The position numbers and the translations under genes were made by a program. The notes under the pieces are model-generated. The model saw nothing but the letters and a program-made list of their open reading frames with translations. It made no database searches and had not been told where the DNA came from. Of a DNA stretch of 49,353 nt, positions 21,864-30,000 are shown in pieces. Origin of the DNA: Candidatus Moraniibacteriota bacterium (GTDB taxonomy: Bacteria; Patescibacteriota; Minisyncoccia; Moranbacterales; UBA2206); the NCBI GenBank assembly GCA_013334765.1, contig JAAXWW010000003.1, positions 1-49,353 of the forward strand, in the 5' to 3' direction. How positions within the stretch are numbered: position 1 is the stretch's first letter; every line of letters starts with the position of its first letter.

Positions 21864-22035
21864 AATATTGAATTAGGCCGAAAAAAAACACGAAACAACC
21901 TCCTTACTCACTTGCTGGAATTATACAACAATTTCCATTGATAGTTAAGCCGGGTTTTTATTTCGTGTCTTTTTTTGAGATTTTCAAAGTTAGCATTTAT
22001 CAAGGCAAATCTATAAGCCGGATTCTGTATCTCGC

Positions 22036-22053
22036 CTCCGTCAACTGACGGAG
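22036..22053. repeat. Palindromic hairpin CTCCGTCA-AC-TGACGGAG in rnpB (same pattern as TCCGCCAGCTGGCGGA)
   Basis: 8-bp stem; tccgYcaRctgRcgga-like with compensating changes. Confidence 0.5.
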
Positions 22054-22231
22054 CGGGACGACAGTCATTTATCTGGACCTGCCATTGCTGGCGGTCTCAA
22101 GCGGCACTCACCGACACAAAGCGCTCAAAGCTCCAATTTGGGGCCCTCAGCGCTTCGTACCAGTGCACGACCTTGCATCCAGGCAGGGATTTAGCCGTTT
22201 CACCCTCGACGTTTCCGCCGAGGCTTATCCA

Positions 22232-22247
22232 TCCGCCAGCTGGCGGA
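22232..22247. repeat. 16-bp palindrome TCCGCCAGCTGGCGGA in rnpB
   Basis: Identical to the 16-mer at 32782-32797 in secD. Confidence 0.8.
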
Positions 22248-22454
22248 GGATATCCGACACTTTCGTGTCAGGACGTCTCTGCTCGCACCCCTTAAGTTGC
22301 CCTAGACGGGAGTTACCCGCTGCCCTTTCTCCAGGCACTTGCGTGCCCGAATGTGAATGTCCGGACTTTCCTCCCCATCCCGCCAAGCGGGACGGAGCGA
22401 CTGTCCGATTTGCCTTGATAAATGCTAATTTTCAGTTTGAAGGTACTTTCTCTG

Positions 22455-26059: not shown

Positions 26060-28474
26060 CTATTTTCTCACTTCCGCCCCGATTTCTTTTTCAAGGCTTG
26101 TGGTTATCTTTTCCATCACCCTATCCACGTCCTTGCTTTCAAGGGTCCTTTCGTTCGAGCCGAGATCGATATGGAAGGCGAAACTGTTGCTGCCGTCTTT
26201 AGCGAAAATATCGAAAAGCTCGGACGAAATAACCAGCTCGCCTCCGGCTTTCTTGATAATCTCGGTTATTTTGGCAACCGATATCCCCTTGTCGACAAGC
26301 ATGGAGATATCGCGGGTGACAATGGGAAAGCGGCTGATAGCAGAATAGGTTTTTTCCTTTCTGGAAACCTTGAGAAGTTTTTCCAAGTCGAGTTCGAAAA
26401 TTGCCACTCTCTTTCCGATTTTGAAATTAGCGACAATTAGCGGGCTCACTTCTCCGATATATCCTATTTTTTCTTTCGTCCCTTCGACTTTGATTTCTGC
26501 CAAGCGTCCCAAATGCCAAGTCCCGAGAGTCGAATCGGTCGGGGTCGGATCGAAGTTGTCATAATAGAAATCCGAAACGCCGAGCTGAGACAAGAAGTCA
26601 TCACATATTCCTTTGACTGAGAAAAATGTTTCAGCATCCTTATCACTGTCCAGAACTTTCGCCACGATCAGCATCCGCTTCTCTTCCGGCATCCCTCCGT
26701 TGGTCCAATAGGCCCTTCCGATTTCGAAAATCCCGAACGAAGAAAAATTCTTTATATTCTCACGGATATTCTTGAGGATGTTCGGAATGAGACTGACTCT
26801 CACATATTCCTGATCGGGATTCATCGGATTCTGAAGCTCATAGTGCTTGATTTCTTCAAGTCCGGTGTCAGCCGCGTCCTTCTTGGAATAGAAAGAATAA
26901 TTATATATTTCATCCAACCCGAAAGCAGAAAGGGCATTGCGTATGCGCCTTTCAAGAATCGACATCTCGTTGACCTTTCTCGAAGCGGGAGTTTCCGCCA
27001 TGATCCGAGGCTGCACCTTGTCATATCCCCAGACTCTTCCGATTTCTTCAATCAGATCCTCCTGAGTTCCAAGATCAAGTCTGAAAGTCGGAATGAGACA
27101 TTTCAAATCATTGCCCGATTTTTCAGTTGCGATTCCCAATGAATTCAATATTCTGACAATATCTTTTTCCGGAACGGTTTCGCCAAGAAGCCTTTCGACA
27201 TAGCCAAGATCCAGTTCGATTTTCCATAGCTTCACCGGTTCAGGATATATGTCGATAGTCTCTTTGATTTCTCCTCCGGCTATATGCTTCAAAATCTCAA
27301 CTAGGCGTACCATGGCTTTTTCCGCCATGTTCGGATCGATATCTTTCTCGAAACGGCTGGATGAATCAGTCTGGATTCCAAGTCTGGTCCTAGTTTTCCT
27401 GATCAAGACAGCATCGAAGCTCGCGGCTTCCAAGAATATGTTCTTGGTATTATCGGAAATTCTAGAATGAAGCCCACCCATGATTCCGGCTAGCGCCAAG
27501 GCTTTTTCGTTGTCGGTTATCAATAAGTCATCGCTGTTAAGCTCTATTTCAGCACCGTCAAGAAGGGTCAGTTTCTCATTGTCTTTCGCTTCGCGAACGA
27601 TGATGTTTCCGGAAATCTTTTCGAGATCGAACGCATGAAGCGGATTACCGAGTTCCAGCATGACATAGTTGGTCGCATCGACCACATTATTGATCGGGCG
27701 GATTCCTGAAATCCTAAGACGGTTCTGCATCCATGATGGAGAATCTTTGATTTCGACATTCTCCATCAGCACTCCGACATATCTCTTGCAATTGTCATTC
27801 TTGATTTCGACATTTATTTTCTTTCCTTTTTTTGTCTTTCCTTCAAGCTCAAGCCCATCGAAATCATAGTCGAATTCGATGCCTTCAAGAGCCGTTATTT
27901 CCCGCGCCACTCCGACATGGCTCATAGCATCATGCGCCCGGTCGGGAAGAACCTTGATTTCGAAAATATCATCCGATTCGACACCGAGATATTCAGCGAA
28001 AGGGATCCCAATTTCGGTTTCAGCTTCAAGGATTTTTATGCCATCATGACTCGTTCCCAATCCGAGTTCGTCTTCAGCGCAAAGCATCCCAGAAGACTCC
28101 ACGCCGCGAATCTTCGCTTTCTTGATTTCAATCCCGCAGGGTAATTTTGCGCCAGGAAGAGCGACCGGGACTATGTCTCCGATCTTGATGTTCGAAGCTC
28201 CGCAAACTATACGATGCAATTCTTCCTCGCCCGTCGAAGCCTTAGCGAAGGCGGGTCTTTTGCCTGTTATATCTACTTCAACCACCTGCAATCTGTCAGC
28301 ATCAGGATGCTTTTTAAGCGAGATTATCTTTCCAACGACAACACTATCGAATCCGCCTCCGATCTTTTCCAATCCCTCTACTTCCAAAGCACGCATGGTC
28401 AATTCCTCACGCACCTCTTCCGCGGATTTTTCAGTTCCTGATAATTCTTTTAGCCAGTTGAATGAATATTTCAT
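26060..28474 (-). CDS. pheT: Phenylalanine-tRNA ligase beta subunit
   Basis: EMAP-like OB region (HPDADRLQVVEVDI...IVCGASNIKIGDIVPVALPGA), B5 and FDX-ACB regions. Confidence 0.95.
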   Translation of the reverse strand: MKYSFNWLKELSGTEKSAEEVREELTMRALEVEGLEKIGGGFDSVVVGKIISLKKHPDADRLQVVEVDITGKRPAFAKASTGEEELHRIVCGASNIKIGDIVPVALPGAKLPCGIEIKKAKIRGVESSGMLCAEDELGLGTSHDGIKILEAETEIGIPFAEYLGVESDDIFEIKVLPDRAHDAMSHVGVAREITALEGIEFDYDFDGLELEGKTKKGKKINVEIKNDNCKRYVGVLMENVEIKDSPSWMQNRLRISGIRPINNVVDATNYVMLELGNPLHAFDLEKISGNIIVREAKDNEKLTLLDGAEIELNSDDLLITDNEKALALAGIMGGLHSRISDNTKNIFLEAASFDAVLIRKTRTRLGIQTDSSSRFEKDIDPNMAEKAMVRLVEILKHIAGGEIKETIDIYPEPVKLWKIELDLGYVERLLGETVPEKDIVRILNSLGIATEKSGNDLKCLIPTFRLDLGTQEDLIEEIGRVWGYDKVQPRIMAETPASRKVNEMSILERRIRNALSAFGLDEIYNYSFYSKKDAADTGLEEIKHYELQNPMNPDQEYVRVSLIPNILKNIRENIKNFSSFGIFEIGRAYWTNGGMPEEKRMLIVAKVLDSDKDAETFFSVKGICDDFLSQLGVSDFYYDNFDPTPTDSTLGTWHLGRLAEIKVEGTKEKIGYIGEVSPLIVANFKIGKRVAIFELDLEKLLKVSRKEKTYSAISRFPIVTRDISMLVDKGISVAKITEIIKKAGGELVISSELFDIFAKDGSNSFAFHIDLGSNERTLESKDVDRVMEKITTSLEKEIGAEVRK
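28230..28255. repeat. Palindromic repeat CCCGTCGAAGCCTTAGCGAAGGCGGG inserted in frame in pheT
   Basis: About 22/26 matches to the valS repeat; encodes RPAFAKASTGE. Confidence 0.85.
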
Positions 28475-28481
28475 GATCTTA

Positions 28482-28514
28482 AATTCGAAATCCGAAAAAC
28501 GAAATCCGAAACAA
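28482..28514. repeat. Left inverted repeat of the four-helix-bundle cassette
   Basis: Contains two direct copies of CGAAATCCGAAA; 14-bp core GAAATCCGAAACAA. Confidence 0.75.
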
Positions 28515-28543
28515 TATTAAAATTCGAATAATTAAATTATAAA

Positions 28544-28909
28544 CTAGCACGACTTTCTCATTATGGAACTGAATATCTTCATCAACTCGGTAGCCTCTCC
28601 AGTCAATCTTAATCTTTCTTTTTCCAGCTCGATAATATTCCCGGAGTCTATAAGCGTTAGCCAATACCTGCTCTCCTTAGCCTCTTTTCTTGATATCTTT
28701 ATCCTCATCAAAAAATCTTTCTTACTCAGTGACTCATTCGCTTCGATATAGTTAGCACCAACAGACCCGGAAGAACGTATGACCTGTTTCCCATCCTCTA
28801 TGTTGGCGATAGTTCTGGGTATCTTCTTAACAAACAGCCTGACGTCTTTTGAAAATCCAAGGGTTCTATCTTCCAGATCGAATTGTTTTTTATCTTGTAT
28901 TTCTGTCAT
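28544..28909 (-). CDS. Four-helix-bundle protein (23S rRNA intervening-sequence protein / S23-like)
   Basis: IRSSGSVGANYIEANESLSKKDFLMRIKISRKEAKESRYWLTLI is the family signature. Confidence 0.92.
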   Translation of the reverse strand: MTEIQDKKQFDLEDRTLGFSKDVRLFVKKIPRTIANIEDGKQVIRSSGSVGANYIEANESLSKKDFLMRIKISRKEAKESRYWLTLIDSGNIIELEKERLRLTGEATELMKIFSSIMRKSC

Positions 28910-28916
28910 TCCGGTT

Positions 28917-28948
28917 TGTTTCGGATTTCTGATTTCGTGCTTCGTATT
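28917..28948. repeat. Right inverted repeat of the four-helix-bundle cassette
   Basis: TTGTTTCGGATTTC core is the reverse complement of the left core. Confidence 0.75.
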
Positions 28949-28950
28949 TA

Positions 28951-30000
28951 TCAGAACTGACGAATGAATCTCAAATCGCCACTATGGAAGAGTCTGACGT
29001 CATCGATTTTGTATTTCATCATGGCGAGTCTCTCAAGCCCGAAACCCCAGGCGAATCCAGTATATTTGCCGCGCGGATATCCAGCGGCCTCAAAAACGTT
29101 CTGATTGACCATGCCAGCGCCGCCGAGTTCCAGCCAGCCGCCATATCGGCAAGCCTTGCAGCCTTTGCCATGACAGACCGTGCAGGTGATATCGAATTCG
29201 AATCCCGGTTCGACGAACGGGAAATAGCTCGGACGCAGGCGCACCTTGACGTCCTGTTTGAAAAGCAAGGAAAAGAATTCCTGGGCGACGAATTTCAGGT
29301 TTCCGACATTGATGTTCTCTCCCACGACCAATGACTCGAACTGATAGAAAGTGTGCTCATGAGTCGAATCAGTCGCTTCTGAACGAAAAACTTTTCCGGG
29401 AACTATGATCTTGAATGGCGGAGTGTGCTGTTCCATATACTTCACCTGCGCAGCCGAAGTCTGTGATCTCATGGATAATCTTTCTTCGCTTCCATTTTTT
29501 TTATTTTTAGCAGCCTGTTTCAGCCAGAAGGTATCCTGCATGTCGCGAGCCGGGTGATGCTCCGGAATATTCAAGGCATCGAAGTTATAGAACTCGGTTT
29601 CGATTTCCGGACCATCGGAAACCTCGAATCCCATGGCAGTGAAGATATCCTGGATGTCGTTGACGATAAGCGAGATGGGGTTGAGATGTCCCGCACCCCT
29701 CTTATTTCCGGGAATGGTGATGTCTATTTTTTCACTTTCGAAATCGAACCCCTTGTTCCTAAGCGCGGTCCTTTTCACTTCGATAGCATCGGAGATTTCT
29801 TTCCTTGCGCCATTCGCCAGAGGCCCGACGACTTTCTTATCTTCAGCTGAAAGAGAACCAAGGCTCTTCATGATTTCCGTGAATTCGCTTTTCCTTCCGA
29901 GATATTTCTTTTCCAAATCGAAAAGTTCCGCCTCATTCCCAGCGGTTTCCAAATCGACGAAAAACTGCTTTCTTATGCCCTCGATCTTTTCTTTTTGCAT
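28951..30000 (-). CDS. pheS: Phenylalanine-tRNA ligase alpha subunit
   Basis: GHLNPISLIVNDIQDIFTAMGFEVSDGPEIE; HPARDMQDTFWL; GFAWGFGLERLAMMKY. Confidence 0.96.
   Translation of the reverse strand: MQKEKIEGIRKQFFVDLETAGNEAELFDLEKKYLGRKSEFTEIMKSLGSLSAEDKKVVGPLANGARKEISDAIEVKRTALRNKGFDFESEKIDITIPGNKRGAGHLNPISLIVNDIQDIFTAMGFEVSDGPEIETEFYNFDALNIPEHHPARDMQDTFWLKQAAKNKKNGSEERLSMRSQTSAAQVKYMEQHTPPFKIIVPGKVFRSEATDSTHEHTFYQFESLVVGENINVGNLKFVAQEFFSLLFKQDVKVRLRPSYFPFVEPGFEFDITCTVCHGKGCKACRYGGWLELGGAGMVNQNVFEAAGYPRGKYTGFAWGFGLERLAMMKYKIDDVRLFHSGDLRFIRQF

Follow-up and report, generated by a model that had tools for sequence, protein, structure and literature searches.

The pheS–pheT operon of this genome carries a compact insert, which is probably a mobile element that acts at the DNA level, has no known transposase and encodes, as its sole gene product, the protein that recognizes its own ends. 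The corresponding junctions of most relatives are empty, and similar elements sit at unrelated sites in many phyla. The core letter of their ends co-varies with the protein, and copies that lack an open reading frame (ORF), here called solos, are found in both orientations. Taken together, these observations point to one insertion of a mobile element. No description of intergenic, heptamer-ended elements with a four-helix-bundle (4HB) gene was found in the open-access literature. They are apparently a widespread, undescribed kind of mobile DNA.

Layout of the element

The window, the whole stretch of DNA that was analyzed, comprises 49,353 nt from a Candidatus Moraniibacteriota bacterium (genome G000; 0.97 Mb). 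The element is about 470 bp in size and is arranged with its host genes as follows.

28951..30000, minus strand: pheS, the upstream host gene (PF01409, PF02912), whose TGA adjoins the element
28480..28950, minus strand: the complete element, which separates pheS from pheT and runs from its 5′ end (28950) to its 3′ end (28480) (from the arm ends and the junction comparison)
28916..28950, minus strand: 5′ arm, TAA followed by ATACGAA, GCACGAA, ATCAGAA, ATCCGAA and ACAA, directly adjoining the pheS stop codon
28544..28909, minus strand: 4HB ORF of 121 aa, S23/IVP (profile match to TIGR02436)
28515..28543, minus strand: inner spacer of 29 nt from the ORF stop to the 3′ arm (from the sequence)
28480..28514, plus strand: 3′ arm, inverted, TAA followed by ATTCGAA, ATCCGAA, AAACGAA, ATCCGAA and ACAA (from the sequence)
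26060..28474, minus strand: pheT, the downstream host gene, 5 nt beyond the element (PF03483, PF17759, PF03147 and others)

An earlier note on this DNA had placed the gene immediately between the pheS stop and the pheT start, and this is confirmed. The pheS stop codon (28951–28953) lies directly at the element edge, at 0 nt, and the pheT ATG at 28474 is 5 nt away. The same note described imperfect inverted repeats of about 32 bp with a 14-bp core. The repeats are indeed inverted (28480–28514 and 28916–28950, 80% complementary) and the core is exact in both, but each arm is 35 nt long and is not a generic repeat, being built of four heptamers and ACAA. The layout of the 5′ arm recurs in anchored relatives. 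In the whole 0.97-Mb genome, the 14-mer GAAATCCGAAACAA occurs exactly at 28501–28514 (plus strand) and 28916–28929 (minus strand) only, and its reversed control pattern gave 0 matches. No rRNA family was matched within the window; the element sits between protein genes. The window also holds a bacterial RNase P class A RNA (RF00010, 123 bits) at 21998–22416 on the minus strand.

The only ORF of the element scores 71 bits against TIGR02436 (cut-off 24) and 50.4 bits against PF05635 (cut-off 33.8). Both scores exceed the curated cut-offs, which bears out the assignment as a four-helix-bundle, IVP/S23-like gene. In agreement with the earlier note, no recognized transposase is encoded. The AlphaFold2 model of the 121-aa protein has a pLDDT of 92.5, with helix 4 formed by residues 93–120. 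The predicted fold resembles the S23/IVP crystal structures 2rld and 2gsc (TM-score of the model to 2rld, 0.71/0.78). The function of these proteins has been called unknown (PMC4990558). Residues R15, Q42, N53, E56, K75, E76, E79, E105, and E108 are nearly invariant in the 4HB family, and the spacing of these polar and acidic residues could let many of them face the bundle core. Ca. Moranbacteria/Moraniibacteriota (Patescibacteria) are among the named organisms with the nearest relatives of the protein.

Empty and occupied junctions

The gene pheS was matched in 31 of 32 related genomes. Where pheT comes next, the gap between the two is 0–36 nt in most of these relatives. Across the 31 genomes, a 4HB gene at this junction is present in the window's genome alone, and the check for empty sites that the earlier note had proposed thus finds most relatives bare. 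Other inserts do occur. The junction of G016 holds an ORF of the GxxExxY family (L056) within its own inverted arms, and those of G039 and G043 hold ORF-less inverted solos of ~95 nt. Some other genomes have short, unrelated inserts at this junction. A Nudix hydrolase-like ORF (L063), without obvious inverted arms, is seen at the pheS–pheT junction of G014.

A second variable site, seen in two genera, is the junction of a MacB-like ATPase and its permease. Here G019 has a 4HB element and G031 a GxxExxY cassette (L306), G016 and G007 have solos, and G030 and G023 have remnants. The junction is short and empty in G024, G032, and G029. Operon gaps such as these two are used repeatedly by different elements. 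The window's genome has a second, more distant PF05635 protein (L017; G000 C1:273987-274301), flanked by comparable ATPase and permease genes.

The relatives include no nearly identical strain pair, and the element boundaries are therefore known to a few nt only. At the compared junctions and solo sites, where no near-identical empty site was available, no consistent target-site duplication was found by eye. The proposal of a mobile cassette could have failed on either of two counts, namely if gene and flanks were found in all relatives or if the repeats were absent around other copies. Gene and flanks are in fact missing from relatives, and the repeats do surround other copies. In-frame stop codons interrupt some 4HB copies (L025/L154 of G035, L155, L245), consistent with decay after insertion.

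Distribution of the 4HB relatives and their arms

Relatives of the 4HB protein are present in 33 of 55 related genomes, with up to 7 copies per genome. In one-per-species genomes, a query built from the first three members found at least 534 relatives in many phyla. The best 80 of these share 59–74% identity and come from Patescibacteria, Planctomycetota, Nitrospirota, desulfobacteria, Omnitrophota, Cloacimonadota, Armatimonadota, and others. Nearly all relatives are from metagenome-assembled genomes, in which some phylum labels may be mis-binned. An origin confined to Patescibacteria was dropped because relatives were found across many phyla. We also considered phages and plasmids as a vehicle. 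No 4HB relative was confirmed in the IMG/VR viral contigs. Weak matches (33–34%) occur in two phage records, and 9 plasmids carry matches of 33–41%. With no match in IMG/VR and none above 41% in phages or plasmids, such a vehicle was rejected.

Most relatives share a common layout: four NNNCxAA heptamers, ACAA, ~10 nt, the 4HB ORF from ATG to stop, ~25–40 nt, and the same array inverted. The core letter, which precedes AA, can be G, T, or C (CGAA/CTAA/CCAA). The period-7 autocorrelation of the arms is 0.493, against 0.335 in shuffled sequences. Strict four-heptamer arrays on at least one side were called at 172 of the 210 related loci (shuffled rate 0.015), and the strict caller found no arm at 38. 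The same kind of flanks thus surrounds other four-helix-bundle genes, in many phyla, as had been anticipated. That an ordinary conserved gene is flanked by repeats through chance has next to no probability. Arrays on both sides are found at 113 of 210 loci, against a shuffled rate of 0.0002, and the junctions are empty in relatives.

The two ends are similar in plan and unlike in their slot preferences. Of 62 anchored elements, 43 have the 5′ arm joint 10 nt before the ATG. Slots −4 to −2 of the 5′ arm often hold GCA, and slot −2 of the 3′ arm is TAT in 24 of the 62. The more distant PF05635 proteins L017 (G000) and L326 (G030) are flanked by arms built of different heptamers (GTATNNN; GTAAGAA), which suggests that the heptamer-arm rule extends over the wider S23/IVP family.

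Solo copies and their orientation

Four-heptamer patterns were searched in the 55 genomes. G049 contains 26 CTAA arrays and one detected 4HB copy, which is of the CTAA type. Many of these arrays are paired as ORF-less solos of about 120–145 bp. The solos of G017 use the words AGTC, AGAC, and GGTC, which are those of its resident 4HB arm (L044) and do not occur in the listed G049 arrays. In both genomes, as is characteristic of MITEs, the solos share core and words with the arms of the resident 4HB copy; the copy in the window is an ORF-bearing one.

The arm signatures, read by eye, allowed 17 solos to be oriented. Ten of them lie with their neighbors and 7 against. Where both neighbors are clear, the ratio is 3:3. 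ORF-bearing elements behave differently: 105 are co-directional with both neighbors, 19 are mixed, and 0 are antisense to both (105:0 versus 3:3; Fisher p = 9e-5). The simplest reading of solos in either orientation and ORF copies in sense only is insertion at the DNA level either way, followed by survival in sense. If ORF-bearing copies survive only where they are transcribed in sense, then the protein is presumably made and needed.

Two further observations concern solos. Between two tRNA genes of the window's genome (C7:3327-3357; L020, L423) lies an ORF-less, truncated solo of four CGAA heptamers, and a different palindromic array, CATGTTTCGTGTTTCATG, is found in the nearby tRNA spacer. 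The complete genome G009 has 13 CGAA-array matches and no detectable 4HB. These may be orphan solos, or their source may have been lost or gone unrecognized.

Arrays of sites and the base-paired stem

The core letter agrees between the two arms in 105 of 114 callable elements. A second caller gave agreement in 57 of 87, where permutation gave a mean of 19.5 and a maximum of 33. The variable NNN positions match within an element in 358 of 744 cases (0.481), and the permutation expectation is 0.483. A base-paired stem would keep these positions complementary; they match no more often than permutation predicts, and the stem is thus not the conserved feature. As read from the sequences, selection has kept inverted arrays of sites, such as transposon ends have, and not RNA pairing.

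These results bear on the relation to the intervening sequences (IVSs) of 23S rRNA in Leptospira, Coxiella, and Brucella and to the rRNA insertions of CPR bacteria. Among described elements, the rRNA IVSs come closest. They encode the same TIGR02436/PF05635 family, with terminal inverted repeats around one ORF. In Coxiella, RNase III cuts the 23S IVS, whose ends form a 28-bp stem and whose S23 ORF is preceded by heptamer repeats (PMC4990558). PF05635 ORFs have been detected within 16S/23S insertions of CPR bacteria (PMC11270868). A classical IVS that moved into mRNA would have arms that pair in the RNA and would be excised from the polycistronic transcript by RNase III. The shared protein family, the inverted repeats around an S23 ORF, and the Coxiella precedent favor this explanation, which we nevertheless judge improbable. 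The variable heptamer positions match within elements no more than between them, and solos lie in both orientations. In addition, the window's element is located between protein genes of an operon and not in rRNA. The reading of an RNA stem as the conserved feature was rejected on the within-element pairing tests. The arms here are not kept as a base-paired stem, solo copies are formed, and co-evolution of protein and ends is not described in the IVS papers compared. Since two defining features of IVSs, rRNA location and a maintained stem, are missing, we did not file the element as an IVS. The rRNA IVSs may themselves be one special form of the heptamer-ended class.

Co-variation of the protein and its sites

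Mapped on the protein tree, the core letter requires 14 changes, where shuffles require 42. For the 50 rows with both labels, the core letter changes 6 times and the host phylum 21 times, which indicates that the arms follow the protein from one phylum to another. The trees rest on a protein of 120 aa and are weakly supported. Positions 118, 110, and 114 are associated with the core letter at z = 5.9, 5.4, and 5.1, respectively, where the family-wise 99% limit is 4.2. For these scores, 101 variable columns were examined, and trait evolution was simulated on a tree built without the tested positions. A comparison of 65 close pairs that differ in core with 75 same-core pairs ranked columns 111, 118, 110, and 114 at the top. 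Independent pairs on starred branches numbered 2 only, and the simulation and the matched pairs were used instead.

In the AlphaFold2 model, residues 110, 114, and 118 are spaced i, i+4, and i+8 along helix 4 and form one face. The typical 110/114/118 triplets are M-G/S-R for the G core, M-G-E or T-G-T for the T core, and K-S-E for the C core. There is an apparent simple code, with Arg118 accompanying the G core and Glu or Thr the T core. Arginine with a G core is what direct base reading predicts. The 4HB protein is thereby a predicted reader of the heptamers through these three residues of helix 4. The earlier note had regarded the gene as cargo of the cassette. It does lie within the element, but the co-variation of residues with the core letter suggests that it is not passive and probably encodes the end-recognition protein.

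We propose the following mechanism. The ends would be the two inverted arms, each with four 7-bp sites, around one S23-type 4HB gene. Helix 4 of the protein would bind the heptamers in double-stranded DNA, as the co-evolution suggests, and the protein would bring the two ends together. It would then cause or enable the element that encodes it to transpose, and would do the same in trans for solos. ORF-bearing copies would persist only where the host operon transcribes the ORF in sense.

Sites that co-vary with a protein and stand at a fixed 10 nt before its ORF would also be expected of a DNA-binding autoregulator that is spread by horizontal transfer, with arms and solos as operators and not as transposon ends. 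We give this explanation little credence, as the downstream inverted array is just as regular as the upstream one. Furthermore, each solo is a complete unit with two arms, the solos are scattered over intergenic sites and lie in either orientation, and whole units are absent from orthologous junctions.

Candidates for the mobility enzyme

Within a DNA-level mobile element of this kind, either the 4HB protein itself catalyzes movement or it recruits a host factor. Reverse transcriptase was undetected in several 4HB carriers, among them G003, G008, G013, G015, G019, and G041. Y1 transposase (PF01797) was undetected in G000, G015, G018, G023, and G041, and both were undetected in G015, G018, and G041. 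The only reverse transcriptase match in G000 is on another contig and not beside the 4HB gene. Each of the two enzymes was rejected as a partner because it is undetected in several 4HB-carrying genomes. 4HB and GxxExxY proteins each occur in 33 of 55 genomes and together in 23, where about 20 are expected. GxxExxY as a nuclease required in trans was rejected on account of this co-occurrence.

The 4HB protein might instead be an accessory or passenger, with a host recombinase or the transposase of another element acting in trans on the heptamer ends. We hold this to be possible and on balance doubtful. The element contains no known transposase motif, the existence of solos implies that ends can be acted on in trans, and G009 has many arrays and no 4HB match. 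Against this, the ends co-evolve with 4HB residues, so that at least recognition resides in the 4HB protein. There is also no obvious partner, given that reverse transcriptase and Y1 transposase are undetected in several carriers and that GxxExxY co-occurs at about the expected level. A rather speculative version of the preferred reading, to which we assign a minor probability, is that the 4HB protein is a recombinase of a new class of transposase, with residues 110/114/118 on another face of helix 4 reading the ends. The nearly invariant polar and acidic residues are a tentative lead toward such an activity.

Comparison with known mobile elements

Insertion sequences and MITEs are likewise small, with inverted ends, scattered copies, and ORF-less derivatives that share their ends with an ORF-bearing copy. 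In contrast to them, the present elements lack a known transposase, and their ends are four heptad sites with a core letter specific to each element. In REP/RAYT and IS200/IS605 (Y1) systems, too, short intergenic palindromes are linked to a single protein. However, Y1 transposase is undetected in G000 and several other carriers, and the element contains no catalytic HUH protein.

The accessory protein Avd of diversity-generating retroelements (DGRs) has the same fold (TM-score 0.70/0.76 to 8ub7, a DGR RNP; similar to 4dwl). Unlike in DGRs, neither a reverse transcriptase nor a template/variable repeat pair lies beside the 4HB gene, whose neighbors are pheS and pheT. G019 has 7 4HB copies, and a reverse transcriptase is undetected there.

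A parallel in arrangement is given by the GxxExxY (TIGR04256) cassettes, in which ORFs lie in periodic inverted arms at the same junctions (pheS–pheT in G016 and MacB in G031). They differ in protein family, which we take to be PD-(D/E)XK, and in arm words (ACTAATT/ACGAAT or TGATT at about 10–11 nt). A GxxExxY-family ORF in periodic inverted arms is also present in the window's genome (L135; G000 C1:151909). These cassettes are apparently a parallel class, likewise undescribed.

Implications

The finding gives S23/IVP proteins a testable function, namely the reading of heptamer DNA ends. It would explain why the same gene occurs with the same flanks in so many phyla, and it would account for many of the repetitive intergenic palindromes of Patescibacteria. 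If the 4HB protein is a recombinase, a transposase would be the ancestor or a relative of the rRNA IVSs and possibly of Avd. The elements would add to mobile DNA a kind that moves without a recognized transposase.
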